From: Mumia quercus
Lineage (GTDB): Bacteria > Actinomycetota > Actinomycetes > Propionibacteriales > Nocardioidaceae
DNA: 64,000 bases
NCBI RefSeq assembly: GCF_025506335.1
Contig: NZ_JANZYO010000006.1
Coordinates: 226,349 to 290,348 of the forward strand
Reading direction: 5' to 3'
The notes under the pieces are model-generated. The model made no database searches and was not told the DNA's origin. It worked only from the letters and a program-made list of their open reading frames with translations. The position numbers and the translations under genes were made by a program. Each line of letters starts with the position of its first letter. Position 1 is the stretch's first letter. Shown here piece after piece: positions 2 through 32,845 of this stretch.

Positions 2-652
2 GTGGACGCGTTCAAGGGGCTGACCGCCAAGTCGGCAACCACTCCTGGGGCTCGCTATCACCTCGCCGCCCAGGCAGCCGTCCCTATGCTCGCGGCCTGG
101 GTTGAGCAATCCAACGAATCGGACCGAACGGCCGACCGGACTCGCTTTCAGATTGATGCCCCAGCAGTCGCGGGCAAGTCCTTCTTCGAGATGGTCACGT
201 TCATGCTGGCGGAGTTGCGGAGACTTCGTCACGAGGGCTTCGACGAGAACTACGCAGACCAGGGCAAGGCAAAGTCATGGGGCACCTTCGCCTCCACCGA
301 CGACGAGTTCCGCGAGCTGTCATCTCGGGCGAGATATCGATACGTCTCGGAGCTCTACCTAGCCGCGTTGCTGTATTACACGAACAAGTTCGGTGACACG
401 GAGATTCAAGAGACAAGGCACCGGCTGTTCAAATGGGCTTATAGCCTTCGGACGGCGTACCAGCGGCTCCAGCTCGCTACCGTCAACAACTACGCCAGTT
501 CATTGAACGACGGCCGATCCGCCTTCGTACTTCTTCGCAGCCTTGAGACTGCCACTGAGCTCCGCAGACTTCGCATCGAGGTCGAAGGGCGAGATGAAGA
601 TCCGGAGCACGAGAAAGATCTACTCCGCCTCTTGAACCAGCTGGTGGGCTGA
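2..652 (+). CDS. C-terminal part of a protein coupled to a DUF262 gene
   Basis: The reading frame is open from the window edge, so the gene is probably 5'-truncated by the window. About 216 residues are visible. They are mostly helical and charged, and no catalytic motif is recognisable. The stop codon overlaps the ATG of the next gene (TGATG), so the two are translationally coupled. DUF262 proteins often occur as adjacent pairs, and this is probably the C-terminal region of the partner. That identity is inferred from context only, because the N-terminal DUF262 motifs would lie outside the window. A GTG at position 2 could in principle be a real start. Confidence 0.6.
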   Translation: MDAFKGLTAKSATTPGARYHLAAQAAVPMLAAWVEQSNESDRTADRTRFQIDAPAVAGKSFFEMVTFMLAELRRLRHEGFDENYADQGKAKSWGTFASTDDEFRELSSRARYRYVSELYLAALLYYTNKFGDTEIQETRHRLFKWAYSLRTAYQRLQLATVNNYASSLNDGRSAFVLLRSLETATELRRLRIEVEGRDEDPEHEKDLLRLLNQLVG

Positions 653-2607
653 TGGTCACGAGCCTTGAAGCCACTCTGTTCGCCGTTAGCGACGTCTTCG
701 GCGAAGACGAAACGCACTACGAGATCCCCATCTACCAACGCAACTTCGCCTGGGGCGTCGAGCAGATCGAACAACTGATCGACGACGTGTGGGCCGCGGC
801 ACAGGCGGACGCAGACGACTACTTCTTGGGCAACCTGATCGTCGCCCGGAAGCCTCCAAAGCCTGACATGAAGCACGTGACCTTTGAGGTCGTTGATGGA
901 CAGCAACGGCTAACAACGCTTTTCATGCTGCTGACCTACCTCGGTGTCGATTCGAAGACGCGGTTGACCTACCAATCCAGAAGGAACGCGACCGACGCGC
1001 TGACCCGCCTCGCGACCTCGGACGACGACGAGGGGGCCGGCATCCACCTGGGCTTCAGAGTGATCGAGTCGCGCATGGGAAAGTTCGCGACCTCTGACGA
1101 ACGGAAGGCCTTCCAGGAGTTCCTGGGCGAACGCGTGCAGCTCGTGCGAGCGATCCTTCCGGAACGAACCGACCTCAACAAGTACTTCGAGATCATGAAC
1201 ACCCGCGGCCAGCAGCTGGAGCAAGTGGACATCGTCAAGGCCCGACTCATGAGCTACTTGCGCGATGAGGCAGGAGAAGTCGAGGCCGAAAGAGCCTGCC
1301 TCGCGTGGGTGTGGGATGCCTGCGCGGAGATGGAGTCATACGTTCAGATGGCCCTAACCCCAGGCGACACGGAGTTGCGAGACACGATCTTCAGCCCGAC
1401 CTGGGATCGACTTCAACTTTCGAAGTTCCATGAGTTGCTCGCGAAGCGGCCCCAGGCCGGAGATCGAAGGGGCACAAGCCGGAGCACGGGGGTCGGAGTC
1501 AGGGATGCGCTCCGGCTCTACGCCCAGGCCCCTGAGCAACCGATCGAGGAAGATTCGGAGAACCGTCGGTTCGAGTCACCGGTCAAGTTCCCGAACCTGC
1601 TGCTTCACGCGTTGAAAGTTCTTCGGGGTGCCGGTGACGGAGAGGACGTCGACGGTCATCTAGACGACAGCAAACTGATCAAGCTCTTCGAGGCCGAGTT
1701 CAAGCCGCTCACTGAGGTTCAACGGTCGGACCGTACTAAGGAGTTCGTCGAGGTTCTTCTGCGCTGCAAGTTCATTCTCGACAACTACGTCCTCAAGCGT
1801 GAGTTCACGGCCACGAATGGCGAGGACGGCGCCTGGTCGCTCAAGCGTCTCACTCGTGGAGAATCAGTGTCTCGACGAGAAGGACGGACCCGGGTCAACG
1901 CGCGATTCCCAAATGCCTTCTCGCCCACCAAGGAGGAGTGGGAAGACACTCCGGTCGACGACGCGACGCGCGAGGTGTTGTTGCTCCAGTCGATGTTCCG
2001 CGTCACCTACACGTCGCCGCGAACGATGCACTGGATCACGAGGGTCTTGCGCGAGCCGATCCTTGATACGCCGCGAGAGCACGCGGCGGCTTCGATGCGC
2101 CAGATCCTTCAGGACTACGCCCGCCGCAAGGTGCAGCAGGCCTACTTCGCAAAGGACCGCCCAGTTGGCTTCAACATCGAACGGATCGTGTTCACCTACC
2201 TCGACTACCTCCTGGCGAAGGGCGCATCACCCGACCTGGCGGCCGACCCAAACTTCACTTTCGTATACCGGAACTCGGTGGAACACTTCTTTCCCCAGTA
2301 CGCCAACCGGGACGACGAGGGTTGGGACCTCGTCACGCCTGATGACGAGGAACTCCACATGTTCGGAAACCTCGCGCTCGTGAGCGTCAGCACGAACTCC
2401 AAGTTCAGTAACAACCTGCCGCCGTACAAGGCGAACAAGACAGAGATTGTCAGGCAAAGCACCAAACTCCAACTGATGGCGAAGTTGGTCAAGAGTGGAA
2501 CCACCTGGGACCGCGCAGCAATCAAGCAGCACGACCAGGCGATGGTCGATGTGCTCTTGAAGGAGCTCCGGGAGGCTGGACACGACGTACAACATTCGCG
2601 CTACTGA
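652..2607 (+). CDS. DUF262/DUF1524 protein, GmrSD-like nuclease
   Basis: This 651-residue protein has the two-domain layout of GmrSD-type proteins. The N-terminal DUF262 domain shows the IPIYQRNFAW segment near residue 26 and the VVDGQQRLTT nucleotide-binding motif near residue 83. The C-terminal DUF1524 region shows VEHFFPQ followed by MFGNLALVS and a late Asn/Lys-rich segment, which is the HNH-like nuclease pattern. Characterised relatives are type IV restriction enzymes that cut modified phage DNA after NTP binding, and others act in defence pairs. The gene is coupled to the upstream one by a one-base stop/start overlap and converges on the transfer operon. Restriction of modified DNA is inferred from the family, and the substrate is unknown. 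Confidence 0.85.
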   Translation: MVTSLEATLFAVSDVFGEDETHYEIPIYQRNFAWGVEQIEQLIDDVWAAAQADADDYFLGNLIVARKPPKPDMKHVTFEVVDGQQRLTTLFMLLTYLGVDSKTRLTYQSRRNATDALTRLATSDDDEGAGIHLGFRVIESRMGKFATSDERKAFQEFLGERVQLVRAILPERTDLNKYFEIMNTRGQQLEQVDIVKARLMSYLRDEAGEVEAERACLAWVWDACAEMESYVQMALTPGDTELRDTIFSPTWDRLQLSKFHELLAKRPQAGDRRGTSRSTGVGVRDALRLYAQAPEQPIEEDSENRRFESPVKFPNLLLHALKVLRGAGDGEDVDGHLDDSKLIKLFEAEFKPLTEVQRSDRTKEFVEVLLRCKFILDNYVLKREFTATNGEDGAWSLKRLTRGESVSRREGRTRVNARFPNAFSPTKEEWEDTPVDDATREVLLLQSMFRVTYTSPRTMHWITRVLREPILDTPREHAAASMRQILQDYARRKVQQAYFAKDRPVGFNIERIVFTYLDYLLAKGASPDLAADPNFTFVYRNSVEHFFPQYANRDDEGWDLVTPDDEELHMFGNLALVSVSTNSKFSNNLPPYKANKTEIVRQSTKLQLMAKLVKSGTTWDRAAIKQHDQAMVDVLLKELREAGHDVQHSRY

Positions 2608-4302
2608 CGCCGCAATGCTGACTCGACCGCTGAGCGATCCGCACGGAGTTGCTTCACATCACGGCGGCCCGTCCAAGGCCGCAAGTCGGTGACCAGGGGC
2701 GGTGCACTGCGGAGCAGTACCAGCGCAGTGCCGAACGGCAGGGTGCGTATGACCTCGGGCGGCATGACCGCCACGCGCCGTACCGAGCGCTGCAATGAGT
2801 GGGAGCCGTAGTCGCCGACCGAGACGGTGTCGGTCTTCTCGTCGCGCTCACCGATCAGCGCGGACAGGTCTTGGAGGTCTCGTGCCGAGGAGGTACCGCC
2901 GAGAATGACCTTGATGATGGAGGCGTCCCAGATCGCGCCAGCCGCGTGGTCGCCCCACTTGTCGCGGGCCTGTGACAGCGATTGAAGGACCGGCATAGTC
3001 GTTATCCCAGTGCCGCCGCCTTCCGCCATTAGCACTGGCAGCGACGGCAGTGGCGAAAGGTTGCCGATCTCGTCGAGGGCCAACAGCAGTGGAGGATCGA
3101 GACGAGCGCCGGGTGAGGCGGCGGCCAGGTGCCGGGCCGTCTCGACCAAGTCCTCGATGAAGGCCGCGACCAGTGACCACGAGGCACCTGCTCCGGCTCC
3201 TGTGGCGAGCAGGTAGAGGGTGCCGTTGTTGGTGAGGAAGTGGACGGGGTCGAAGTGCTCGCCGGGCTTGGGTGAGACGGCGTCGAGGACGCGCGGGTCG
3301 GCCAGGCACGACAGGGCGAGGGAGACACTCATCCAGATGGAGTCGCGGGTGCGGGGGTCGGAGTGGATCATCGACTCCAGTGAGTCGGCCCAACCGGGTG
3401 CGGCCTTCCGGTTGCCCGACAGGACCGCCACCGCGTCCGCAGCAGCCGAGGGCGAGAGGGAGGGCGGTGCGGGTCTTGCCTTCCCAGAAGCCGCCGGACT
3501 CGACGCCTCCGGTCGACAGTCCGGTCGCGGAGGCGAGGCCGGTGGCTCGAATCATCGCTGTGAGAGGGTCCTCGCACCCGCGCACGGGCGACCAGCGGAG
3601 CCCGGCAGGCAGACCTTCGGCCAGGCATTGTGGGTCGAAGACCGCGACAGGGCCACGCTTCCCCTGGGCGGTGAGGGTGGCTGCGATGTTGTCCGGGCGG
3701 GTCGCCGTCGTGACAACAGCGCCGGGCGCGTCGAGGATCGCGTTGATGACGACGTGCAGACCCTTACCCGAGCGGGGCGGGCCCAGCAGCAGGATCGAGT
3801 CCTCGACGGACGCCCACACCCCCTGGCCACGGGAGCGGCCGAGCAGGTAGCCGATGTCGGACGGCTCGGGTTCGTCGAGCGACGGCCGCAAGGTCCGGCC
3901 GCGCGACAGCAGTGCCTTCTGTGAGGCCACAGACCGTACGTCGCGAACAGTCGCAACGCCGGCCAGGCGCCGCGGGTCGTGCGTGGTCTTGTGTTTGATC
4001 GAGCCGATGCGCCGCCACAACACCAGCGCACTCGCCACGACCGCTGCGACCATCAGGACGAGCACGAGCCAGTAGACCCATGCGGCGAGGCCGTCAGCGC
4101 CAAGCGCAGCAGCCGGGTCGCTCGGTTGGCTGAGAACGCGGAACCCGGCTTCCCAGGCACCGCTCGGCTGCCTGGCTCCCGATAGCCAGGCCGCTATCGA
4201 GCCGGCGAGCCGCAGAATCGCCGCGATCACGCCGACGGCAGCGATGAGGATGAGTCCGAGGTTGACCAGGTCGTCATCGACTCCCTGCCCACGAGGGTTC
4301 AT
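2601..4302 (-). pseudogene. VirD4/TraG-like type IV coupling protein, frameshifted
   Basis: Two reading frames together make one coupling ATPase. The first (4302 to about 3448) has two N-terminal membrane segments, the Walker A LLLGPPRSGKG near residue 172 and a GGFWEGKTRT motif near residue 270. The second (about 3446 to 2601) continues with AAADAVAVLSGN, APGWADSLESMIHSDPRTRD and the Walker B LLLALDEIGNL. They are one base out of phase. From memory of the family, about 20-25 residues normally found between GKTRT and AAADAV are also missing, so a small deletion with frameshift is more likely than a simple base error. It overlaps the upstream gene by ATGA. Without this ATPase the relaxosome cannot be delivered to the secretion channel. 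Confidence 0.8.
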
Positions 4303-5869: not shown

Positions 5870-7395
5870 CGGATTCCTCCTGTCCCGGAAGGCAGGTGTG
5901 AAGCCGGTGCCACGCCGTTCATTCGGCCCGTGGTGTCGAAGAGTTCCAGCTCGGCCGGATGGAGCTGGTGCTGTACGACGAACGACCTGTGCTTGATCCG
6001 CCACAGACCCTGGCCGGTGCCCAGAGTCGGCAGTAGTGACTGCTCGGTGCCGGTCAGGCCGAGTGCGGCAGCCGTTGTGCCGAGCTGGTCGGACTCCTGC
6101 CGGTACACCACGCGCGTTTCGGCATTTGCCAGCAGTGACGAGGCCAGTGCACGCAGGACGGAGCCTTGGTCGCCGACGTTGTCGAGGTCTGAGAGCTTAT
6201 GGAAGATCAGCATGTTCGCGATGCCGTAGTGCCGCGCGAGCCGCCAGTGTGCGTCCATGCGACGCAGTAGGGCGGGGTGCGACATGAGCCGCCACGCCTC
6301 GTCGTAGACCACCCACCGCTGCCCACCGGCCGGGTCGAGTAGCGCGGACTCCATCCACGCCGACGCACACGTCATCAACACCGAGATCAGCGTCGCGTTC
6401 TCCGTAACCCGCGAGAGGTCGAGGGAGATCATCGGCAGGTTCGGGTCGAAGCGCACGGTGCTCGGGCCGTCGAACAGCCCGGCCAGGTCGCCTGCGACGA
6501 GACGACGAAGTGCGTGTCCGACGAGGCGGCCGTCCTCTGCGAGTCGACCATCGGTGTCCGTGGTCTCGTCAGGTGCGAGAAGCCGGTCGACCACCATCGG
6601 CAGCATGGGCACTTCGGCTATGCGGACTGCGTCGGCTAGGGCCACGTCGATCGCCGTGTGCTCTAGCGGAGTCAGTCTGCGGTCGAGCACGGTCTCTGCC
6701 AGCGCACCGACCAGCTCGCGTCGTCGGGCGGTCACCTGAGTTGCCCACTGGATGTCGTCGAGCCCTGCGGGCCGGTGTCCTTCGTCGAGCGGATTGAGCC
6801 GGTTGGCCATGCCGTGCCCAAGCAGGATGGCCTTGCCGCCGACCGCTTCGGCGACCGCGGTGTGCTCGCCCTTCGGATCACCGGGGACATAGACGCGGCG
6901 ACCGAACGGAATCGAGCGCGTGTAGAGGCTCTTCGCCAACGCCGACTTACCCGAGCCAACGATGCCCGCGAGCACGAGGTTCGGAGCGGTGATCAGACCA
7001 CGGGCGTAGAGAACCCACGGGTCGTAGACGAACGACGACCCGGAGTAGAGGTCTTGGCCGACGAAGACCCCGTCGCTCCCGAGGCCACCTTCGGCGAGGA
7101 ACGGGTAAGCACCCGCGAGCGTGGCCGAGGTGTCCTGATGACGCGGCAACCGCAGGCGACCGGGCGTGCGGAGAGCGGCGGGTCCGGGCTCGCCGGCCCT
7201 CGGCAACACGACGGTTGTGCGACTTTCGGCCGCGATTTCGTCGGCTCTGGCCTTCGCGACGGCCTTGCGGGAGTCCCGGTCCTCGGCGAGTAGGGACTTC
7301 GCCGCCGCTTTGCGAGCACGCCGGTCACGACGACGTTCGCGTCGAGGGGCGACGAGAACCGCGCTGTGCAGGCGGCCTTCGTTCCAGCCCTTCAC
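5866..7395 (-). CDS. VirB4/TraC-like conjugation ATPase
   Basis: The 509-residue protein is a type IV secretion ATPase expected at the cytoplasmic face of the inner membrane. It shows Walker A AGIVGSGKSALAKSL near residue 145, a following VPGDPKGEH segment, and Walker B WVVYDEAWRLM near residue 355 with the downstream helicase-like motif ANMLIFHKLSDL. The first 70 residues are very basic and rich in Arg and Ala. It is shorter than classical VirB4 (about 800 residues) because the N-terminal domain is reduced, as is common for actinobacterial versions. The GTG start at 7395 overlaps the previous stop (GTGA). It is co-transcribed with its neighbours on both sides. Confidence 0.85.
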   Translation of the reverse strand: MKGWNEGRLHSAVLVAPRRERRRDRRARKAAAKSLLAEDRDSRKAVAKARADEIAAESRTTVVLPRAGEPGPAALRTPGRLRLPRHQDTSATLAGAYPFLAEGGLGSDGVFVGQDLYSGSSFVYDPWVLYARGLITAPNLVLAGIVGSGKSALAKSLYTRSIPFGRRVYVPGDPKGEHTAVAEAVGGKAILLGHGMANRLNPLDEGHRPAGLDDIQWATQVTARRRELVGALAETVLDRRLTPLEHTAIDVALADAVRIAEVPMLPMVVDRLLAPDETTDTDGRLAEDGRLVGHALRRLVAGDLAGLFDGPSTVRFDPNLPMISLDLSRVTENATLISVLMTCASAWMESALLDPAGGQRWVVYDEAWRLMSHPALLRRMDAHWRLARHYGIANMLIFHKLSDLDNVGDQGSVLRALASSLLANAETRVVYRQESDQLGTTAAALGLTGTEQSLLPTLGTGQGLWRIKHRSFVVQHQLHPAELELFDTTGRMNGVAPASHLPSGTGGIR

Positions 7396-7799
7396 AGCGA
7401 TAGCCCGTGGTTGGCCGAGCGGTGTGGCGCGTCTGCGAAGGCCGGGAAGTCAGGATGGATGTAGGTGAGGCGGGACTCGGCGTTGTGAGCGCTGGCGATG
7501 GACTCGGAGACCTGGTGGAGGATCTCGCCCGCCCGGTGCAGCTCCCAGGACACCTGATAGGTCGCCGCGCGCCCGGCGCGGGAGTCGCCGGCCACCCACA
7601 CGCCCTTCTGGGCAGCGGCGTCGTGGAAGGCCGCGAGCTGGTGCAGTGATTGGCTCAGCGCCGCGACGGCCGACGTGAGAGACCCGAGCACCGAGTAGAT
7701 CTGGCGCGGGTCATCGATAGAGCGGGTCGCGTGGGCCAGGGCACGCAGGGCAGTTTGTACTTCGTCGGCGTCGGCCGACGGGTTCTCGAACGTGGGCAT
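7392..7799 (-). CDS. Small helical transfer-operon protein, function unknown
   Basis: This is a 135-residue protein of predicted helical character without membrane segments or known motifs. The start at 7799 follows a strong GAGGAGG ribosome site. The stop overlaps the GTG of the VirB4-like gene, so it is the first gene of the left half of the transfer operon. Its helical make-up (repeated Ala/His/Ser/Leu patterns) would suit a small structural or partner protein. It is divergent from the HTH-PIN-kinase cassette, which begins 171 bases away. No function can be assigned from sequence. Confidence 0.75.
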   Translation of the reverse strand: MPTFENPSADADEVQTALRALAHATRSIDDPRQIYSVLGSLTSAVAALSQSLHQLAAFHDAAAQKGVWVAGDSRAGRAATYQVSWELHRAGEILHQVSESIASAHNAESRLTYIHPDFPAFADAPHRSANHGLSL

Positions 7800-7896
7800 C
7801 GGAGCCTCCTCTTCGGTCTGGTCGAGATGAAGGTGTGCGTGCCTGCCCCGACGGGGGCCTGCCGTTTGACTGCAGGAGTCGCTACCGCGGCGGTTC

Positions 7897-7926
7897 TTGA
7901 CAGGTTGCACTTACGACACTTAGATT
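7897..7926 (+). promoter_or_regulatory. Putative promoter of the HTH/PIN-kinase cassette
   Basis: A perfect -35 hexamer TTGACA (7897-7902) is followed after 18 bases by TAGATT (7921-7926), a fair -10. Between it and the GTG start at 7971 lies the 8-base palindrome ACACGTGT, which could be an operator for the HTH protein encoded first in the cassette. AGGAGGAG just before 7971 is the ribosome site. Function is inferred from position and consensus only. Confidence 0.5.
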
Positions 7927-7970
7927 TCAGATGCGTCAGATACAGACACGTGTGACAGTTAGGAGGAGTC

Positions 7971-8387
7971 GTGGTCGGACACGTGGAACGTGCGATCCAG
8001 TCGGTCCGCGCGGCCTTGGCGGAGACCAACGATCCGGTCGCAGTCACGCTCTCGATCCCGCGCGACACTGCCCAGAAGCTCCTCGAACTACTGGAGGCCG
8101 AGGGCATCGCCGGTGCCGTGGTCGTCCCAGTCAAGGAGCAATTCACCACAACCGAGGCAGCCAAGATGCTTGGCATCTCGCGTCCCACCTTGATGAAGCT
8201 GATTGATTCCGGCGAGATCGACAGCGTCAAGGTCGCGAGTCACCACCGCATTCCCGCGCCAGCGATTGCTCGTTACGAGCACGCCCGCGCCGTGAGCCGA
8301 AGCCGTGCAGCGGAGGCCATCGAGGGGTTTGCCGACGACGTCAAGGCCGGCTTCCAGCAGAACGTCTCGTTTGGCGGGAATGATTAA
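7971..8387 (+). CDS. Excisionase-like HTH DNA-binding protein, antitoxin-like
   Basis: The 138-residue protein has a MerR/excisionase-type helix-turn-helix near residues 60-110 (FTTTEAAKMLGISRPTLMKLIDSGEI followed by HHRIP). An N-terminal helical region contains LSIPRDTAQKLLELLE. Proteins of this form commonly serve as DNA-binding antitoxins or autoregulators encoded before PIN-domain toxins. That is exactly the arrangement here, because its stop overlaps the ATG of the PIN-kinase gene (TAATG). The GTG start is preceded by AGGAGGAG. It probably represses its own promoter and may neutralise the PIN domain. The DNA-binding fold is well supported, and the antitoxin role is inferred from context. 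Confidence 0.75.
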   Translation: MVGHVERAIQSVRAALAETNDPVAVTLSIPRDTAQKLLELLEAEGIAGAVVVPVKEQFTTTEAAKMLGISRPTLMKLIDSGEIDSVKVASHHRIPAPAIARYEHARAVSRSRAAEAIEGFADDVKAGFQQNVSFGGND

Positions 8388-10759
8388 TGAGGGCCCCCAA
8401 GCGAGTGAACCCGCTCGACTTCGTTAGCCCCGGCGGGCGACTGCTCATCGACACGAGCGTCTTCATGGACGACCGACCCGAACGGCGAGGTGGCCTAAAG
8501 GCACTGCTCGAACGATGCGGCCAGCAGATTCGGCTCAATGACAACCCGATCGTGATCCCGACCGACGTGATCGAGGAGCTGACGAGGCAGAGCCGGAAGG
8601 TTGACCCGGACCGAGAAGAGGCGATCCGCCGTGCAGGCGTGGCACTTGGGTTCATCGAGGACGCCGCGGCCCTCAAGTTGATGCGCACCGACATCGGTCA
8701 CGATGCGACGCACTACGCGGACTCTGTCTTCGAGGCCATATTCACGCGTTACGCGAACCAGTACGACATGTGCCTCATCATCAACGACATCACGCCGCTG
8801 CTCCATGTCCGCTTGTTGTCGGCATCGAGCAGCAAGCAACTCGTCGCGGGATCACTCACGAGCGACGGACTCGTCGAAGTAGAGAGTGATCAGACCCTGT
8901 ACGAGCGAGGAGTGCGGAAACTTCGTCGCAAGCAGGACGAGGGAGATGCCCGCGAGGTTGCCGCGTTGAGCCCGCTCCTCGCCGACTTCAAGGGACAGTT
9001 CGGGACCGCAGAGCCGGTGGACCGTCGCCCGGGTGCGACTGCCGCCAGGGCGTCGATTGGGGTAGCGACCGTTCGGCGCCGCGTCGAGCCATTCGACGGA
9101 AACGCTCCGTTCAGGGGCGCGGACACGCCCATTGAGGTGGCCAGCATTCCGGGCCCCGGAGATAAGGTCCACCTCGAATCTCCGGCTGGCCGTGGATGGG
9201 TCGTTCTCGATGAGCTCCTCGGCGAGGGCGGCGAGGGTGCGGCATACGCAGTCGATGGCGACCGCGTCATCAAGATCTTCGACCGTGACCATGTCACGCG
9301 CCACCGCCAGGCGAAGGTCGAGCACTTCACCTCTAGGAGCCTGCACTCGGAAGGAATCTGCTTCCCCGAGGCAGTCGTCACAAATGAAGCGGGCGAGTTC
9401 GTCGGCTACATGATGCCTCGAGCCAGGGGCAACGAGTTCCGCGTGATCATGAATCCGCGACGATTCCTCAAGGCCTTCCCCGGCTGGACGAAGGCAGACC
9501 TCGTTGATGTCTGCATCTCCTTCCTGGAGAAGGTCTCCTACCTGCACTCGCTCAACGTGATCGTTGGTGACATCAACCCAAAGAACGTCGTCGTGGACGA
9601 GGCGAAGAATGTCTGGATGATCGACGCCGACTCCTGGCAGGTCGAGGGGTACCCGTGCCCAGTTGGGACTCCCATGTTCACAGCCGCGTCGGCACTTGGC
9701 CGACCGTACGCCGAGTCGCTTCGCACAATGGAAGAGGAGCTCTTCGCTGTCGCCACGATGCTCTTCATGGTCCTGATCACGGGTCAGTTCCCATACGCCC
9801 GATCGGGATCGGACGGGGACATTGCCCGTCTGGTCAAGGACGGCAACTTCGCCTTCCAGGTGGGTGAACGCTCAAACCGTGACCAGCCTGAAGGCAACTG
9901 GAAGTACATGTGGAGCCACATGCCGCGCGACCTCAAGGAGATGTTCTGGCACACATTCCACCGTGACGGCAATCGGTACACGTCGCCCCCGACCGCAGAC
10001 GAGTGGCTCCGAGCGTTTCGGAGGTATCGCTGGTGGCTCGGCAGCGACAAAAACTTCGACCCAATGTCGAACGATGTGTACCCATTCCGATTCAAGGCGT
10101 TCAAGCCTGATACGCCCATCCTCGACTGTCCCCAGTGCCGTCGTGCACACGCGCTCGTGGGTGAGTGGAGTGAAGCCACCCAGGAGCACAGCATCCCCGA
10201 CATGTGCTTCGACTGCCGCCAGCAGAACCGACCGAAGTGCTCCGACTGCGGGACCCCGCGACCGCCAGGGGCCCTGAAGAACGGACGCTGCCGAGAGTGC
10301 AATCGCAAACGCGACTTCGGCACCTGCGAACGTTGCGGCAAGGAGACGCCGCGTCGCTACCTCGTTGATGGCCGGTGTTCCAAGTGCCAGACGGGCACCT
10401 GCAAGAGCTGCAACAAGTCGGTTCTTAAGTCCGATCTCTCCTACGGCCGCTGCTCGGCTTGCGAGAAGCGAGCCAAGGCGCTCGACCCGTCCAGGCTGTG
10501 CACCGACTGTCGGCAACCGTTCATCGACTTTGACCACATCGAGTGGTTCAAGTCGAAAGGGCTTGAGGTGGCGAAATCCCACGCCGCCATCAAGAAGACG
10601 TGCCCGCCGACGACGGCAAGGGCCCGCGCGACGACGTCGTCCCGCACTCACCGTGCCCCGCGCACGTCTCCCTCGCCATCCAAGCCGACTGCATCGAAGC
10701 CCACTCTCCAGCAGCAGCCCAGCTTGTGGGGGCGCCTGCAGAAGTGGTGGAACAGTTGA
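8387..10759 (+). CDS. PIN nuclease-protein kinase-zinc ribbon fusion protein
   Basis: The 790-residue protein has three parts. Residues about 15-180 form a PIN-type ribonuclease domain with the expected acidic residues in LLIDTSVFM, TDVIEEL, YADSVFEA and IINDI. Residues about 265-560 form a Ser/Thr-kinase-like domain with a glycine-rich loop (LLGEGGEGAAY), VIKIF lysine, catalytic GDINPKN near 393 and MIDADSW near 411 in place of DFG. Residues about 580-715 hold a run of Cys-x2-Cys zinc ribbons, followed by a Ser/Thr/Pro-rich tail. The kinase is the kind found with TerY-type vWA and PP2C partners, which follow immediately. Fusion of a PIN nuclease to this kinase is unusual and suggests phosphorylation-controlled RNA cleavage, which is inferred. 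Confidence 0.8.
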   Translation: MRAPKRVNPLDFVSPGGRLLIDTSVFMDDRPERRGGLKALLERCGQQIRLNDNPIVIPTDVIEELTRQSRKVDPDREEAIRRAGVALGFIEDAAALKLMRTDIGHDATHYADSVFEAIFTRYANQYDMCLIINDITPLLHVRLLSASSSKQLVAGSLTSDGLVEVESDQTLYERGVRKLRRKQDEGDAREVAALSPLLADFKGQFGTAEPVDRRPGATAARASIGVATVRRRVEPFDGNAPFRGADTPIEVASIPGPGDKVHLESPAGRGWVVLDELLGEGGEGAAYAVDGDRVIKIFDRDHVTRHRQAKVEHFTSRSLHSEGICFPEAVVTNEAGEFVGYMMPRARGNEFRVIMNPRRFLKAFPGWTKADLVDVCISFLEKVSYLHSLNVIVGDINPKNVVVDEAKNVWMIDADSWQVEGYPCPVGTPMFTAASALGRPYAESLRTMEEELFAVATMLFMVLITGQFPYARSGSDGDIARLVKDGNFAFQVGERSNRDQPEGNWKYMWSHMPRDLKEMFWHTFHRDGNRYTSPPTADEWLRAFRRYRWWLGSDKNFDPMSNDVYPFRFKAFKPDTPILDCPQCRRAHALVGEWSEATQEHSIPDMCFDCRQQNRPKCSDCGTPRPPGALKNGRCRECNRKRDFGTCERCGKETPRRYLVDGRCSKCQTGTCKSCNKSVLKSDLSYGRCSACEKRAKALDPSRLCTDCRQPFIDFDHIEWFKSKGLEVAKSHAAIKKTCPPTTARARATTSSRTHRAPRTSPSPSKPTASKPTLQQQPSLWGRLQKWWNS

Positions 10760-10793
10760 AGATCTCAAACCCACCCAGAAAGGAATGCTGACC

Positions 10794-11474
10794 ATGGCAT
10801 TCGATATCCGAGCCGACGACCTAGTCGAGAACCCAACTCCAAGAGTCCCGGTTTCACTCTGCATCGACACGAGCGGCTCCATGGCCGGCGACAAGATCCG
10901 CGAGCTCATCGAGGGGATCGGACTATTCTACGCCGCCATCGATGAGGACGACGATGCCCACGACTCAGCCGAGGTCTGCGTCGTTGCTTTCAACTCGGGA
11001 GCTGACCTCGTTCAGGATTTCGCGAGCATCGAAGGGCTCCGACGAGACGTCTCGATTTCGCCCAGCGGTCTTACCCATATGGGCGAAGGCGTGAATCTCG
11101 CTCTCGACACACTTGAGAAGCGGAAGTCGCAGTACTCCGACACCGGCGTCCTGTACTACCAGCCGTGGCTCGTCCTCATGACCGACGGCCAGCCGAACGG
11201 CGATAGGGCCGCGTTGGAGCGGGCGATCGAGCGGGTGACAAGCATGGTCGACAGCAAGAAACTCACGGTCTTCCCGATCGGGATCGGAAGTGATGCAGAC
11301 CTCGATGTCCTTGGGAGATTCTCACCGGGGCGACCGCCGCTTCGCTTGCAGGGCCTGAACTTCAAAGAGTTCTTCGAGTGGCTATCGAAGTCCGTTTCCA
11401 AGGTCTCTCAGTCGATGCCAGGCGGCGAGCCCCCCATCGACTTTGGATCTATTCGAGGCATCGAGGATCTCTGA
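10794..11474 (+). CDS. TerY-like von Willebrand A domain protein
   Basis: The 226-residue protein is almost entirely a vWA domain. The metal-ion-dependent adhesion site is intact: DTSGSM near residue 25, the threonine in THMGEG, and LMTDGQPNGD. It resembles TerY, the vWA member of the vWA-kinase-PP2C triads described with tellurite-resistance and stress systems. The start at 10794 has an AAGGA ribosome site; longer in-frame extensions overlap the kinase gene and are rejected. It lies 34 bases after the kinase and directly before the phosphatase. It probably acts as a metal-dependent scaffold or as a substrate of the kinase/phosphatase pair. Confidence 0.85.
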   Translation: MAFDIRADDLVENPTPRVPVSLCIDTSGSMAGDKIRELIEGIGLFYAAIDEDDDAHDSAEVCVVAFNSGADLVQDFASIEGLRRDVSISPSGLTHMGEGVNLALDTLEKRKSQYSDTGVLYYQPWLVLMTDGQPNGDRAALERAIERVTSMVDSKKLTVFPIGIGSDADLDVLGRFSPGRPPLRLQGLNFKEFFEWLSKSVSKVSQSMPGGEPPIDFGSIRGIEDL

Positions 11475-11475
11475 G

Positions 11476-12228
11476 TTGTTCCGGGCGTTCCACTATCAGG
11501 TCAGAGGCCGTGGTCACGTCCTCGACGGCGTTCGTGGCCAAGACCGTACGGCCTACCTAGCGCGCAACAGGGTGCAGGTGATGTGCCTGTCGGACGGGGC
11601 AGGCTCCGCCACGCACGCAGAGTTCGGTGCCCAGGCTCTCGTCGACGCTGGATGCAGGCTGCTCGTGGAACGTTTCAGCGATTTCGTCGCCAGCCAGGAC
11701 GGCGCATCGCTGAAGCTTGAGATTGTGGAATACCTGCTCGAGCGTCTCGGGGACGTGGCCGAACGTCAGGGCGTTCAGATTCGGGACCTGGCAGCCACCT
11801 TCCTCGCTGTTGCTGCGGCGGGCGACAAGTTCCTGATCCTCCACGTCGGCGACGGAGTCATCGGATACGTGAAGGACGGAAGTGCACAGGTTGCTTCTGG
11901 CCCAGACAACTCAGAGTTCGCAAATCAGACCAGCTTCGTGACCTCGAAGACGGCAGCCGGCGCTATGAGGATTCTGCGCGGCGACCTTAACGGCGTCGAT
12001 GGTTTCATCATGATGAGCGACGGCACGGCGAACAGTCTCTACGACTCCCGAACCGAGGAACTTGCCCCAGCCTGCTTGAAGATCGTGGCACGCCTGTCAT
12101 CCGCTCCGACAACCCGAACCAAGAATCCCGAGTACAGAAAGCAGTTGCGCCGGCTAATCGACACGAAGGTCCGATTTGCTACTAAGGACGATTGCTCGAT
12201 CGGCGTCCTTGCGAGGAAGTCGGGGTAG
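11476..12228 (+). CDS. PP2C-type protein phosphatase of the TerY triad
   Basis: The 250-residue product carries the aspartate motifs of a metal-dependent PP2C phosphatase: CLSDGAGSA near residue 38, HVGDGVIGYV, MMSDGTANS and the C-terminal DDCSIGVL. The TTG start at 11476 was preferred because GAGGA lies eight bases upstream and it clears the preceding gene. An alternative TTG at 11443 would overlap the vWA gene by 32 bases. Together with the kinase and vWA protein it makes a complete phosphorylation-dephosphorylation triad. It should reverse phosphorylation by the PIN-kinase, and the substrate is unknown. It ends just before the oppositely oriented SCO6880-type gene. Confidence 0.82.
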   Translation: MFRAFHYQVRGRGHVLDGVRGQDRTAYLARNRVQVMCLSDGAGSATHAEFGAQALVDAGCRLLVERFSDFVASQDGASLKLEIVEYLLERLGDVAERQGVQIRDLAATFLAVAAAGDKFLILHVGDGVIGYVKDGSAQVASGPDNSEFANQTSFVTSKTAAGAMRILRGDLNGVDGFIMMSDGTANSLYDSRTEELAPACLKIVARLSSAPTTRTKNPEYRKQLRRLIDTKVRFATKDDCSIGVLARKSG

Positions 12229-12268
12229 CCGCCCCTGGTGAGAGGTGCAGTACGTTGCGCACGCGGAA

Positions 12269-13735
12269 TCAGACGTTCCGGCACAGGGGTAAGGCGGCGG
12301 CTGTAAATGCCTGGGCTTGCTGCCCCCAGAGCCGCCTGGTCTCGCAGGAGGCTTGGATGGCCGCTTGCTCGATGTCGGCCACGGCGCGTTCGAGCTCGTC
12401 AGGGTCTTGGGCGCTGACAGCGATGAGTCCCGTGGTGCGGAGGATGCCGTGGCCGGCGGTGAGGTCGGCCTCCTGCTGGAGGACGTCGCTGTACTCGGCC
12501 GACTGCTGGGCGTCCTCGATCTGGCCGATCCGCTGGCGCTGGGCGGCATCAGAGATGTACTCGGTCTTCTTCTTGCGGATGTCTCTCGCGGCCTGGTCGG
12601 TGCGCATGGGCGTGTAGATCAGAGTGAAGGTGCGGCGGATTCCCGACGACAGGAGCACGGGCGCGAGGAAGCCCGGGTAGACCAGGGAGCGCGGCCACTC
12701 GCTGATCCAGAGCACGCAGTGGTGCGCGGAGTCCGAGCGCACGCTCGACCAGTTCTCGGTGACGGCGACCGGCCCGGCGGAAGCGAGGTCGCGGCCGAGA
12801 TCGCCGTGGCGTTCCAACGCGCCGGCGACGACCGGGTCGTAGGCCGAACGCAGGATGACCGCCAGGTCACCAGGCTCCAGCCAACCGGACGGAGCGAGGT
12901 CAGCAGCTCGGAGCGCGGCGGTCATGGTCGACATCTCCTGCCGCAGCACGGCCGCGGCTCCTCGGTTGCCGCCACCAGCAGCGCGGATCGCGCGGCCAGC
13001 AGCCTTTATGTCGAGTGAGATCGAGACGGTGCTCGCGTGCCGTTCGCCCGCAGGGCCAGCGCGGTTGATGAGTTCGCCGTAAGTCGTCGACGTCCACGAG
13101 TCGTTCTGGCGACCGTGCTGGGACCACCACTCAGCGAGTCCCTTGCCGGAGTCAGGCAGGGTCTTCTCCATCACCTGCAACGAGGCGATGCGCCCGGAGC
13201 GGCAAGCGGTGGCGAGGACGCGCCCCCAGCTCGTGACCCGGCGCTGCTGTTCGAGGGGGTCGAGCAGGATGAACGCCGGGTGTGTGACGCCGACGATGGC
13301 GGTCAGCGTGGCGGCGTGTGGGTCGTGGACCATCACCGCCCCGCACTCGGGGTCGAACCATTGGCGAAGTCGAGCTGCATCGCCGGGCAACGACAGCGTT
13401 CCGGCCGGTCGTGGTTTGACGATGCGGCGGCGGAACAGGAGTTGCCCGCCGGTCGAGCGCCACATCCACTTGGTGACTACTGGGAGCCACTCGACGATCT
13501 TGCGGCCACCGATGGCGACGAACGAGAGGGCAGCGCAGAGCAGGAGGATCGGGACGACGTACATCAGTGACTCGCCGACGCCGAAGTAGAGGGCGAAGAC
13601 CAGGACGATCGCGCCGATGCCGACCACGACGAGCTGCGACCCGGAGAGTCCGAGGAGAACGCCACGTCGGGTGAGGCGGGAGAACTTGACCGGCGCGAGT
13701 TCGTAGTGGTGCGCGGTTGCTTGGCTTCTCATCAC
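12269..13735 (-). CDS. SCO6880-family (PrgI-like) conjugation protein
   Basis: The roughly 488-residue product has two membrane segments near residues 30-80 (LVVVGIGAIVLVFALYFGV and a second one). A large soluble domain without Walker motifs follows. This matches the actinobacterial SCO6880 family, which combines a PrgI-like membrane anchor with a VirB4-N-like domain. In these elements it probably completes the reduced VirB4 ATPase as a separate polypeptide. The GTG at 13735 directly abuts the previous stop, and an ATG three bases on is an equally good start. The operon is interrupted after this gene by the oppositely directed PIN-kinase cassette before it resumes at 7,799. Confidence 0.78.
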   Translation of the reverse strand: MMRSQATAHHYELAPVKFSRLTRRGVLLGLSGSQLVVVGIGAIVLVFALYFGVGESLMYVVPILLLCAALSFVAIGGRKIVEWLPVVTKWMWRSTGGQLLFRRRIVKPRPAGTLSLPGDAARLRQWFDPECGAVMVHDPHAATLTAIVGVTHPAFILLDPLEQQRRVTSWGRVLATACRSGRIASLQVMEKTLPDSGKGLAEWWSQHGRQNDSWTSTTYGELINRAGPAGERHASTVSISLDIKAAGRAIRAAGGGNRGAAAVLRQEMSTMTAALRAADLAPSGWLEPGDLAVILRSAYDPVVAGALERHGDLGRDLASAGPVAVTENWSSVRSDSAHHCVLWISEWPRSLVYPGFLAPVLLSSGIRRTFTLIYTPMRTDQAARDIRKKKTEYISDAAQRQRIGQIEDAQQSAEYSDVLQQEADLTAGHGILRTTGLIAVSAQDPDELERAVADIEQAAIQASCETRRLWGQQAQAFTAAALPLCRNV

Positions 13736-28422: not shown

Positions 28423-28688
28423 GCGAGTCGCCCCAGGCGGTCAGCCTTCGTTCTTTTCCTGGGGGACTCTGACCGGAGACCACAGTCGATTGCCGCTAAC
28501 GATGGCAGGAGATTTCGGTGCAGAGAATAGAGAGCTGTCCAGCCGCAGCGCCGAACTGCAGCCTGCCTCCCGCAATAGTCCTGCGCCGATTCGTACCTTC
28601 TGTGAGGATTGAGGGGCAGTCGGTCATCCACGCACGCGCGTGGGTACCGTCGTCAGGGAGCGGCGAACGGAGAACCTCGGAGGGGCGT

Positions 28689-29159
28689 GTGTCTGTCTGG
28701 CCAGATGCGGGCCTCGCTGTGTGGAGTGAACTGGAGCGGTCACCTGGGCGCTTTGCCCTCATCTCAGGTGCCGGGGCCGACGAGACAGCCGATTTGTTGG
28801 CTGAGTTGCGCGGAACGGTCCCGGTGCACGTCGGCCGCCTTCTGACTCAAGCTGAGAGCCGACCCAGTGAGGCCGCCATCCGTGGACGGCTGGCAGGAAG
28901 CTCCGTGCTGGTGGGGGCGGAGATCCTCTTCGACCCGGTCCTTAGCCTCGACCCGATCCGACTCCTGGCGACCCTGGCGAGAGTCCAGCCCGTCATTGCT
29001 GTCTGGCCGGTGGACACGGAGGTGCAGCCCCTCACCTTTCCGCCCGGTGTCGGTGGGTCAAGACATACTGATCAAGACTTACAGGGAAGCCTGCTTCTCC
29101 GGACGAAGGCCACCATCTTCGCGGACGAGGCTCCATTCATCTCAGAGAGGTTCAGCTGA
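28689..29159 (+). CDS. brxF: BREX type 3 protein BrxF
   Basis: The 156-residue product has the length and position of BrxF, the small P-loop-type protein that opens type 3 BREX operons. The segment where a Walker A would be expected reads ALISGAGADETADLL, which lacks the GKT/S core, so ATP binding may be lost or the alignment imperfect. The GTG at 28689 has GGAGG five bases upstream; an in-frame ATG 57 codons earlier has no ribosome site and gives an N-terminal extension unlike the family. Its stop overlaps the brxC start (TGATG). Identification rests mainly on operon order. Confidence 0.65.
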   Translation: MSVWPDAGLAVWSELERSPGRFALISGAGADETADLLAELRGTVPVHVGRLLTQAESRPSEAAIRGRLAGSSVLVGAEILFDPVLSLDPIRLLATLARVQPVIAVWPVDTEVQPLTFPPGVGGSRHTDQDLQGSLLLRTKATIFADEAPFISERFS

Positions 29160-32100
29160 TGCGTTACCGCGACCTGGTTCATTTCGAGCCTGTCGAGAGC
29201 GTCAAGCAACTCCGCGCCGCCGACAGCGCCGATCAGGCGCGCGAGGACGTTCGCACCTTCATCATCTCCGAGACGATGCGGGAGCAGTTGACGCAAGTAG
29301 TGCTGCCGAACTTGAGGTTTGACAATCCCGATTTCGATCACAAGGGTCTGCTGCTCATCGCGACTTACGGCACAGGCAAGACCCACCTGATGAGCTGTCT
29401 GTCGGCTGTTGCGGAGAACGCCGACTTGGTTTCGGACCTGACTGACGAAGCCACGGCCGAGGCGGCGGCACCAGTCGCCGGGCGCTTCAAGGTCATTCGA
29501 GTCGAGATCGGCGCGGTACAAATGGGCTTGCGCGACCTTCTCGCCTCGGAACTCCAGGACGGTCTGGCCAAGCTGGGAGTCACCTACGAGTTTCCTCCCC
29601 TCGACAAGGTGACGAACAACAAGCGTCCCCTCCAGGAGATGATGGCTCTCTTCGAGGCGGCGTACCCCGACCACGGGCTGCTCCTTGTCGTCGACGAGTT
29701 GCTCGACTTCCTCCGAACCCGCAGGGACAGCGAGATCATCCTCGACCTCGGGTTCCTGCGCGAGATGGGCGAGTTCTGCCGCGACGGTCGGTTCCGACTC
29801 ATGGCCGGTGTCCAAGAGACGATCTTCGACAATCCTCGGTTCGCCGCTGCGCAGGACGAGGTTCGTCGCGTCCGGGAGCGGTATCAGTCGTTCCGCATCG
29901 CGCGAGAAGATGTGGCGTACGTCGTGCAGGGTCGAATTCTTGGCAAGGACGCTGAGCAGAAGAACCTCATCCGGGAGCACTTGGCAAAGTTCGCTCCAGC
30001 CTTCGAGTCGCTTGGGCGCGACCTGGAGTCGTTCGTGGACCTCTTCCCCGTGCACCCCGCGTACCTCAAGACGTTCGAGGCCCTGACCATTGTCGAGAAG
30101 CGTCGCATCCTCTCGAGCCTCACCGCGCAGATCAGGCAACGACTGGATGACGAGGTCCCAGATGACGCGCCCGGAGTCATCTGCTTCGACAGCTACCGCA
30201 GCGAACTCGACGCCGACCCGGCGAATCGGGTGATTCCGGAAGTTCGCACGGTTCTTGAACGAACCCGTGTTCTGCGGGACCAGGTCGAGCGCAACATCGA
30301 CGTTCCTGGCGACGTGCAGCCGGCGCTCAGGATCGTCGATGCTTTGGCGGTCCACCGCCTGACGACCGACGACCTGGATGCGCCCATCGGCCTTACCGTC
30401 GACGACCTGCGGGACGACCTGTGCTTGCTGCCGCCCGACACCCCTGAACTCGACGCGGCGTTCATTGCCGGCTCGATCGAGACGCTGGTACGGGAGATCA
30501 GCAAGGCGGTCTCGGGGCAGTTCCTCTCCACGAACGAAGCCAACGGTCAGGTGTACCTCGACCTGAAGAAGGACGTCGACTACGAACAGCAAGTCAACGA
30601 GCGGGCCGTCACCCTCGACGAGGATCAGCTCGACAATGCGTACTACCGGGCGCTTGAACAGTTGCTCGAGGTTTCCGCTAGCCCTTACGTAGCGGGGTAT
30701 CGAATCTGGACCTACGAGCTGCCGTGGGCCGCGAAGAAGGTAACCCGCCTGGGGTACCTGTTCATGGGAGCTCCGAACGAACGTTCGACTGCGCAACCGC
30801 CTCGTGACTTCTATCTCTACTTCCTTCAGCCGTATGCCCCGCCGAAGTTTGACGACCCCATGAACCCAGACGAAGTCTTTCTCCGGCTGGAGGATCCCGA
30901 CGAGGGTTTCACTACGTCTCTGCGCCGCTATGCCGCCTCGCTGCTGAAGGCGCAGGAGACAACGAGCCAGCATCGTTCAGCCTTCGAGTCCCGCGCGGCG
31001 AAGCATCTCAACGAGATGGTCGCCTGGTTGCGCGCGAATCTCGTGAACAACATGAAGGTGACCTATCAAGGCGAGCAGAAGACGATCGCGCAGTGGCTTG
31101 CGGGGGTCCAGGGTGGCCGCAAGAGCCTCAAGGAGCAGCTTGACACTATTGCCTCCAACGCTCTCGCCACACATTTCGCCACCAGGTATCCGGGCTACCC
31201 CTTGTTTAGCGACCAACTGACCTCAAGCAACCTGTTCAACGCGGCACAGGCCGCACTGGCGCAGCTTTCCGGCAAGGACACGGCCCTAGGCCGCGCGACC
31301 CTCGGGGCGCTGCAGTTGCGCGACTTGGACGAGAACATCGTCGAGTCCGGTACGTACGCCGCTGCCCTCGTCGGCACCCTCAATGCCGCCGGCGGTGCAG
31401 CCGTGAATGATTCCGACCTCTTGGTGGAGCGCGACCCGGGGGTTCGAACGTGGGGTACGTGGCACCTGGAACCTCTGTGGCTCGTGGTTGTCGCCGCTGC
31501 GCTCAGTTATCTCGGAAGGGCTGAGCTGGGCTTCGCAGGTGGCCAGAAGATCACTGCCTCCAACCTCGACGACCTGAGCAGGATGTCCCAGGTCGATCTC
31601 GAGCGACTGTCGTTCATCACCACCCCCGCCGGGGTGGACGCCGCCGGGCTCACGCGAGTCGCGACCCTGCTCGGGCTTCCGCCCGCGCTTGGACAGGGAG
31701 AGGTTACGAACGAGGTCGCCGCCAGATTCGTGGCCGAGGCGGACGCGACGCACGCTACGGCGAGTGAGTTGAAGGCGTACGTGCAGTCGGCGCCTCGGCT
31801 TTGGGGCGAGGAGTTGTTCGATGATCCCGCTGGGCGGCTTGCTCGGATCGCAGCCTTCGTCGATGTCGTCGCCGACGTGCGGACCCGGAACAACGTCGGA
31901 AAGCTCAAGCGACTGAATCTTGATCAAGCGAAGCTGGACGCTGCTGCCGAGGGGAAGAAGGAGCTGGCCCGAGTCGATGAGCTTCGCAGGGTCAACGACC
32001 AATTCAGCCCGATCGTGCGCTACTTGGAGGATGCGGGGAACGTTCTGGGCGCGAACGACCCATACGCGGAAGATGCGACCCACGCTCGGGCCCAGCTCCG

Positions 32101-32845
32101 TGACGTTCTGAGGGCGCCCGCACTGGACAAGAACGCGGCAGCTGCCGCCCGACGCGCAGCTGAGGACATGCGCGTCCAGTACCGCACCTTCGCGGTCGAG
32201 CGACACACCGCAGAAAGGCTGCCGGCCTCAGGGGACACCGAGAAGCAAGAGCTCGTCAACGGCCCAGCCTGGCGCGATCTGACCACGCTGTCGACCATTG
32301 AGCTCCTGCCGAGCGGACAATTCGGGGACCTGGATGCGCGGCTCCTGGGTCTGGTCGCGTGCAAGCAGTTCAGCCCGAGCGACTACGACAACACCTACAC
32401 CTGTCCGCACTGCAGTTACCGGCCGTCGCCTGCCTCGGGTGAGTCGGCTCAGCAGCGGCTCAAGTCCGTTGCGGACCGTGTGAACGAACTGTGGACCGAG
32501 TGGGTTGCAGCCCTTCGGGACTCCGTACGGGCTCCGGAGATCCACCAGCAGCTCGAGGTACTGCAGACGGAGGAGCGAGCGCGAGTCGAGGAGTTGCTGG
32601 ACGACAAGCTCGCGGTGGGGGAGATCAGTCAGCAGCTTGTGTCGACCGTCAAGCAGCTCCTCAACAAGTTCTCGATCGTTCACGTCGCCCCCCGTGAACT
32701 CGTCGACGCGGTGTTCCCGGCCGGTCGGGCAACAACAGTGGCTGACGCTGCGCAGGCTTTCGAGACCTGGCTCAATGGGCTGGCCCAGAAGGCCGGGGGA
32801 GACCCGGCAAGCATCCGTCTCGTGGCCGATGGAGATGATCAGTGA
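29159..32845 (+). CDS. brxC: BREX type 3 ATPase BrxC (DUF6079-like)
   Basis: The 1228-residue AAA-type ATPase is the largest BREX component. Walker A is ATYGTGKTHLMS near residues 68-78 and Walker B is LLLVVDELLDFL near residue 177. A long helical middle and a late zinc-knuckle-like CPHCSY near residue 1081 follow. BrxC is thought to power or gate the methylation and exclusion complex on DNA. The ATG overlaps the brxF stop, and the 3' end overlaps the methyltransferase start by four bases. The gene is full-length and undamaged. Confidence 0.88.
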   Translation: MRYRDLVHFEPVESVKQLRAADSADQAREDVRTFIISETMREQLTQVVLPNLRFDNPDFDHKGLLLIATYGTGKTHLMSCLSAVAENADLVSDLTDEATAEAAAPVAGRFKVIRVEIGAVQMGLRDLLASELQDGLAKLGVTYEFPPLDKVTNNKRPLQEMMALFEAAYPDHGLLLVVDELLDFLRTRRDSEIILDLGFLREMGEFCRDGRFRLMAGVQETIFDNPRFAAAQDEVRRVRERYQSFRIAREDVAYVVQGRILGKDAEQKNLIREHLAKFAPAFESLGRDLESFVDLFPVHPAYLKTFEALTIVEKRRILSSLTAQIRQRLDDEVPDDAPGVICFDSYRSELDADPANRVIPEVRTVLERTRVLRDQVERNIDVPGDVQPALRIVDALAVHRLTTDDLDAPIGLTVDDLRDDLCLLPPDTPELDAAFIAGSIETLVREISKAVSGQFLSTNEANGQVYLDLKKDVDYEQQVNERAVTLDEDQLDNAYYRALEQLLEVSASPYVAGYRIWTYELPWAAKKVTRLGYLFMGAPNERSTAQPPRDFYLYFLQPYAPPKFDDPMNPDEVFLRLEDPDEGFTTSLRRYAASLLKAQETTSQHRSAFESRAAKHLNEMVAWLRANLVNNMKVTYQGEQKTIAQWLAGVQGGRKSLKEQLDTIASNALATHFATRYPGYPLFSDQLTSSNLFNAAQAALAQLSGKDTALGRATLGALQLRDLDENIVESGTYAAALVGTLNAAGGAAVNDSDLLVERDPGVRTWGTWHLEPLWLVVVAAALSYLGRAELGFAGGQKITASNLDDLSRMSQVDLERLSFITTPAGVDAAGLTRVATLLGLPPALGQGEVTNEVAARFVAEADATHATASELKAYVQSAPRLWGEELFDDPAGRLARIAAFVDVVADVRTRNNVGKLKRLNLDQAKLDAAAEGKKELARVDELRRVNDQFSPIVRYLEDAGNVLGANDPYAEDATHARAQLRDVLRAPALDKNAAAAARRAAEDMRVQYRTFAVERHTAERLPASGDTEKQELVNGPAWRDLTTLSTIELLPSGQFGDLDARLLGLVACKQFSPSDYDNTYTCPHCSYRPSPASGESAQQRLKSVADRVNELWTEWVAALRDSVRAPEIHQQLEVLQTEERARVEELLDDKLAVGEISQQLVSTVKQLLNKFSIVHVAPRELVDAVFPAGRATTVADAAQAFETWLNGLAQKAGGDPASIRLVADGDDQ

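Follow-up and report, generated by a model that had tools for sequence, protein, structure and literature searches.

A TerY-P triad with a PIN domain on its kinase and an antitoxin-type first gene in a conjugative element of Mumia quercus: a candidate phospho-gated defence cassette

Through what effector does a TerY-P triad act? Triads of this kind guard against T7-like phages (PMC7699616, PMC10889362), though we found no established output of their signalling in the literature. The question is raised anew by a cassette of four plus-strand genes at positions 7971-12228 of a 64,000-nt stretch of Mumia quercus DNA (GCF_025506335.1, NZ_JANZYO010000006.1, positions 226,349-290,348, forward strand; hereafter the window). 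In this operon of approximately 4.3 kb, a helix-turn-helix (HTH) gene of the HTH_17 family is followed by a gene encoding a PIN domain, a kinase and zinc knuckles in a single protein, and then by the genes for a TerY-like von Willebrand factor A (vWA) protein and a PP2C phosphatase (Table 1). On balance, we consider that the cassette encodes a TerY-P triad with a built-in effector, i.e. a kinase that carries a PIN ribonuclease, and that an antitoxin-type HTH gene stands in first place. An earlier note on this DNA had listed the same four genes, with an excisionase-like HTH protein encoded by the first and with the catalytic residues seemingly complete. Coordinates and gene order proved correct, the HTH assignment was confirmed by Pfam and NCBIfam, and the catalytic residues were recovered as conserved acids in the PIN domain, invariant residues in the kinase, an intact metal ion-dependent adhesion site (MIDAS) in the vWA protein and, by alignment, the metal-binding aspartates of PP2C (QDR, DGAGS, GDG, SDG and DDCS).

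The cassette is a genuine unit and no chance grouping, because the four-gene order, a survey of which the earlier note had proposed, was found in five further loci. These lie in Arthrobacter NtRootA1 (L002; 82% identity), on a contig filed as Stenotrophomonas (L003), on a conjugative Paenarthrobacter plasmid (L004) and in two genomes from the Nocardioidaceae, to which the window belongs (L029 and L030). Loci from Fusobacterium (L005) and from a Lysinibacillus plasmid (L006) carry the PIN-kinase, vWA and PP2C genes without this HTH gene, and in three actinobacterial loci (L026, L027 and L028) a separate PIN gene of 210-215 aa overlaps the kinase gene and is followed by vWA and PP2C. The PIN domain always stands directly before the kinase, fused to it in eight loci and split from it in three; a chance fusion of open reading frames or a gene-merging artefact was ruled out by the eight uninterrupted fused frames and the three overlapping split pairs. 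Within the window, the stop codon of the HTH gene and the start codon of the fusion gene overlap as TAATG, and the remaining intergenic gaps measure 34 and 1 nt, with the vWA start corrected to ATG 10794 and the PP2C start placed, by homology with L002 and L003, probably at TTG 11476. The ratio of non-synonymous to synonymous substitution rates (dN/dS) was approximately 0.03-0.13 across those cassette domains for which it could be computed. The cassette is rare: of the 397 genomes examined in the order, 4 have it, the window's own included, and in a sample of the phylum the strong matches outside the window's own genome numbered just two, each in the split form. Other phyla were sampled through plasmids and one genome scan; megablast against E. 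coli gave no match.

Triads with and without a PIN domain also differ in descent and gene order. In a vWA tree, a single branch (support 90/93) set all 11 PIN-associated triads apart from 10 PIN-less ones, a clustering that was reached in none of 500 label shuffles. The genes are arranged as (PIN)kinase-vWA-PP2C in the former and as vWA-PP2C-kinase in the latter, without exception (11 versus 10). Extra domains linked to RNA or translation were found in three of the relatives, namely S1 in L003 (4e-8) and IF2_N in L029 (6e-7) and, weakly, in L030.

Since the window protein alone gives only a sub-threshold Pfam match for the PIN domain (PIN_4, 0.004-0.04), the call needed the whole family. PIN_4 was matched by eight of the 12 aligned family members and PIN_12 by six (E 0.05 or better), the Fusobacterium member (5e-6) and the Paenarthrobacter member passing the PIN_4 cut-off. 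The profile built from the 12 members matches the PIN protein Utp24 (E 0.007), and for an AlphaFold model of residues 1-270 the first Foldseek match was the PIN structure 3ix7, with a probability of 0.96 but an E of 0.07. The earlier note had made its reading depend on the conservation of the acidic residues among homologues: D22, E64 and D134 are present in 12 of 12 aligned PIN domains; D112 is present in 11 and missing from an extra PIN copy in an HTH fusion of the Fusobacterium locus. The four acids are kept across loci down to 13% identity, in fused as well as in stand-alone forms. Between the window and L002, dN/dS is approximately 0.07-0.10 for the PIN domain and 0.25-0.47 for the linker that joins it to the kinase; this fast-evolving linker, residues 206-272, is a candidate place for phosphosites.

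The kinase domain is matched by Pkinase with 8e-7 in the window protein and with up to 5e-15 in relatives, and all 11 kinases aligned share Lys296, Asp395, Asn400 and Asp413. It is the most conserved part of the cassette (93% identity and dN/dS 0.03, window versus L002). This conservation, the divergent sequence of the PIN domain and the existence of kinase-driven antiphage modules (PMC11341870) would suit a system in which the kinase itself is the effector, with host or phage proteins as its substrates (an idea put forward for the kinase-kinase-PP2C module KKP), and in which the PIN, without catalysis, binds RNA or serves for docking and so guides the kinase to ribosomes or RNA. We judge this improbable, given that all four PIN acids persist at such low identity in both forms of the gene, and that the PIN lacking D112 is the extra Fusobacterium copy, as a relaxed, non-catalytic copy would look. 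A short Trp-rich C-terminal tail (for example KWWNS, DWFWN or EWWRLS) is found in the fusion proteins of the window, L002, L004, L029 and L030, and in the split PIN proteins of L026-L028.

The origin of the first gene is suggested by its relatives on plasmids: all 12 that were sampled immediately precede a gene for a stand-alone PIN protein; an excisionase of the element was therefore rejected as the principal role of the HTH protein. Four of the partner PIN proteins were scanned and all were PIN_3. The comparison with HTH/PIN toxin-antitoxin pairs drawn in the earlier note thus holds for the HTH family, a standing partner of PIN proteins, but not for the PIN domain of the cassette, which is not detectably of the usual partner type: comparison of its profile with PIN_3 (PF13470) was not significant (P 0.036), and it matches PIN_4 and PIN_12 instead. 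The HTH gene therefore seems to have been borrowed, or to be a partner that diverged long ago. The profiles, having no significant match, do not support a mere recent fusion of a PIN_3 toxin to the kinase. The cassette shares with the HTH_17/PIN_3 plasmid pairs a homologous HTH gene directly upstream of PIN and short-repeat operators before the HTH gene; it differs from them in its PIN_4/PIN_12-like PIN, which is N-terminal on a kinase, and in the two triad genes that follow.

A phased array of CASTT motifs at 9/10-bp spacing precedes six of the six four-gene cassettes. In the upstream regions (6x110 bp = 660 bp), CASTT occurs 24 times on the coding strand, where 1.4 are expected, and not at all on the other strand. 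The spacing alternates between 9 and 10 bp in L003, and an autocorrelation of the upstream regions that uses no motif has peaks at spacings of 9, 19 and 28 bp (z 6.7, 7.6 and 4.3). A single copy of the tandem CASTTRNNNCASTTR exists in the 64-kb window (7908-7922), and 100 shuffles produced no copy; the repeats of the window lie within a promoter-like site and reach the ribosome-binding site. Upstream of the HTH gene, most HTH-PIN pairs have either inverted repeats of CACTT/AAGTG or repeats resembling TTTCGTTT at spacings of 9 or 18 bp. The array suggests the trace that would be expected of an autoregulating antitoxin, i.e. a putative operator, and we infer that the HTH protein is an antitoxin-type autorepressor.

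The relatives show further variation around the PIN gene. In the split loci another gene, encoding 217-570 aa, precedes it (L026:7780-9492, L027:8883-9536, L028:4767-5543); the products from L026 and L027 have a conserved C-terminal stretch of approximately 40 aa in common, and those from L027 and L028 match weakly. This gene may replace the HTH partner. At L005:4304-5212, just before the PIN-kinase gene, an Xre-type HTH is joined to a second PIN that has lost the acid at the D112 position. L006 has a fourth gene after the triad (L006:9415-10071), whose product has a C-terminal DnaJ-like domain by a weak Pfam match (9e-4). In L003, the cassette and a TrwC-type relaxase gene resemble those of Micrococcales, and the Stenotrophomonas maltophilia contig is probably mis-binned or the result of a recent transfer.

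The window is a conjugative element, with type IV secretion system (T4SS) genes, a TrwC relaxase, a primase-polymerase and ParB. The cassette occupies the site between a small conserved gene of the conjugation cluster and the gene for a SCO6880/PrgI-like protein; these are neighbours on the Microbacterium plasmid L044, where, in the same cluster, 54 nt separate the SCO6880 gene and the small gene, and VirB4 follows. GC content is 0.60-0.63 over the cassette versus 0.66-0.69 in both flanks. Because it splits conjugation genes that are adjacent in L044 and has a lower GC content than its flanks, the cassette is cargo of a mobile conjugative element. Such cargo could also serve as an addiction or stability module, in which the PIN-kinase and the HTH protein act as toxin and antitoxin to penalise cells that lose the element, and kinase, vWA and PP2C tune toxicity, with no dedicated anti-phage role. 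A standing partnership of this HTH family with PIN genes on plasmids, the residence of the cassette in an integrative/conjugative element and of its relatives on plasmids, and the toxin-antitoxin-like putative operator are all in line with this. However, antiphage activity of the triad was demonstrated in other hosts, the full BREX and GmrSD systems of the window point to defence cargo, and two fused relatives lack such an HTH gene; we regard an addiction module as unlikely. Taken together, the conserved acids, the split and fused forms, the HTH-PIN partnership, the operator-like array and the position as mobile cargo alongside other defence systems uphold what the earlier note had claimed at its core, an antitoxin-like HTH gene in front of a PIN nuclease fused to the kinase of a triad.

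Table 1. Features of the cassette and its surroundings, in positions of the window.
Feature	Positions	Strand	Details
HTH_17/excisionase-family protein, 138 aa	7971-8387	+	Pfam HTH_17 4e-11, NCBIfam 'excise' 1e-12
PIN-kinase-zinc-knuckle fusion, 790 aa	8387-10759	+	
PIN nuclease domain, residues 1-205	8387-9001	+	predicted catalytic D22 (8450), E64 (8576), D112 (8720), D134 (8786)
Ser/Thr kinase domain, residues 273-570	9203-10096	+	GEGGEG loop, K296, GD395INPKN400, D413xD415
Zinc-knuckle region, residues 581-708	10127-10510	+	nine CxxC motifs; followed by linker and Trp-rich tail
TerY-like vWA protein, 226 aa	10794-11474	+	Pfam VWA 1e-8, alignment; MIDAS DTSGS...T...D intact
PP2C phosphatase, ~250 aa	11476-12228	+	PP2C_2 4e-40, alignment
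Promoter-like site TTGACA-18-TAGATT, upstream of cassette	7897-7926	+	sole site in 7700-12500; 0.5 expected in shuffles
Operator-like CASTT(A) direct repeats	7908-7960	+	at 7908, 7917 and 7956
Small conserved conjugation-cluster gene, left flank	7392-7802	-	start trimmed by homology
SCO6880/PrgI-like conjugation protein, right flank	12269-13735	-	
GmrSD-type type IV restriction gene	652-2604	+	near left window edge
VirD4-like coupling protein gene	2601-4302	-	apparent frame break near 3440
BREX operon	28518-40353	+	BrxF, BrxC/PglY, PglX, BrxHI, PglZ, BrxA

The BREX operon lies approximately 16 kb from the cassette. In the VirD4-like gene, the T4SS-DNA_transf match ends at residue 225 of a 484-aa frame, and reading seems to resume in the overlapping frame 2601-3431.

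Comparison with known systems places the cassette among TerY-P triads (Anantharaman et al. 2012; antiphage in Gao et al. 2020; both as related in passages of PMC11090510, PMC7699616 and PMC10889362). All three genes agree with the published definition, which comprises a vWA protein, a PP2C and a kinase with zinc ribbon (PMC11090510), and by their sequences they therefore are a TerY-P triad. Common to both are the vWA with MIDAS, the PP2C, the Ser/Thr kinase with C-terminal zinc ribbons and the setting in mobile elements or defence islands. The cassette departs from known TerY-P in the PIN on or just before the kinase, the antitoxin-type HTH first gene and the order of genes, in addition to its own branch of the vWA tree; the order vWA-PP2C-kinase of the ten PIN-less triads is typical, and is not part of the definition quoted by PMC11090510. 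As TerY-P triads are already validated as antiphage, novelty lies in the built-in PIN and the HTH gene and not in the triad. A literature search that did not include the founding 2012 paper found nothing that joins TerY-P with PIN.

TerY-P triads were also hypothesised to be metal-sensing phosphorylation switches (PMC11090510). The zinc knuckles and the MIDAS would suit an ordinary triad for metal or tellurite stress, with PIN and HTH serving only for feedback on its own mRNA and promoter, and the putative operator does suggest autoregulation. Yet no ter genes were found among the proteins scanned around the cassette, and a self-acting RNase fails to explain a family-wide partnership with PIN across phyla in cargo positions, which makes this explanation very improbable.

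Three further systems resemble parts of the cassette. KKP, a mobile-element module described as a tripartite toxin-antitoxin with antiphage effect, likewise balances a kinase by PP2C, but as described consists of two kinases and PP2C, without vWA, zinc knuckles, PIN or HTH gene (PMC11341870). In CoCoNuT types II and III-A (PMC11090510), the TerY-P triad is linked to predicted RNA-targeting nucleases, there of the HEPN type; in contrast, the McrB-type GTPase, the helicase and HEPN are neither in nor next to the cassette, the neighbours of which are conjugation genes, and its PIN is fused to the kinase. The GAP1-N2 and vWA-MoxR conflict systems (PMC7159879) also combine genes for a kinase-zinc ribbon protein, a PP2C and a vWA protein, and related vWA systems were reported to have effectors of the PIN or S1 type (PMC7159879). 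No MoxR ATPase, VMAP or DO-GTPase was seen adjoining the cassette, whose PIN is on the kinase and not on the vWA component.

Several observations weigh against a PIN ribonuclease built into a triad for defence. The match of the window PIN is weak, the structure models are of low confidence (predicted local distance difference test, pLDDT, 62 for the PIN part and 44 at full length), and the best Foldseek E is only the value given above. The alpha-C glutamate of the kinase is not conserved in the 11 aligned sequences. The Fusobacterium and Lysinibacillus loci, like the split ones, lack the HTH gene, and because the PIN is not detectably of the PIN_3 type, the analogy is an unsure guide to neutralisation. 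None of the PADLOC models picks up the vWA protein. Two scans of viral contigs found no relative, which also led us to reject a phage-borne origin; a phage collection gave one weak kinase-only fragment. The association with defence is by neighbourhood only.

On the reading we favour, that of a TerY-P triad with a PIN effector on its kinase, the HTH protein would bind the phased CASTT array and repress the operon; if it behaves like its relatives, it may also keep the PIN inactive. The vWA protein would assemble the complex, and PP2C would keep the kinase or the PIN-kinase linker dephosphorylated. Invading nucleic acid or an infection signal, perceived via the zinc knuckles or the vWA protein, would shift the balance between kinase and phosphatase; the PIN would then cleave RNA, probably in the translation machinery, and so arrest the cell or the invader. 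The sequences themselves show the component domains, the conserved catalytic residues, the constant linkage of the genes, the operator-like array and the position as cargo; we infer repression, neutralisation, phospho-gating, RNA as the substrate and the anti-phage role alike, the last by analogy with the activity of the triad against T7-like phages and with KKP.

It is possible, and we propose it tentatively, that these cassettes form a distinct class of phospho-gated toxin-antitoxin defence, in which a PIN RNase on a TerY-P kinase is held by a transcriptional antitoxin derived from HTH-PIN pairs and reset by the PP2C of the triad itself. If so, the TerY-P signal would act on an RNase in cis, and a single toxin would have two independent safety catches, repression and dephosphorylation. 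Members of Actinomycetota, Bacillota and Fusobacteriota have the variant; both fused and split forms exist, and an antitoxin-type gene often stands in front. An effector carried on the kinase would make the output of TerY-P testable, by asking whether the kinase/phosphatase balance is an RNase switch, and would unite toxin-antitoxin modules and phosphorylation-based defence in one operon.

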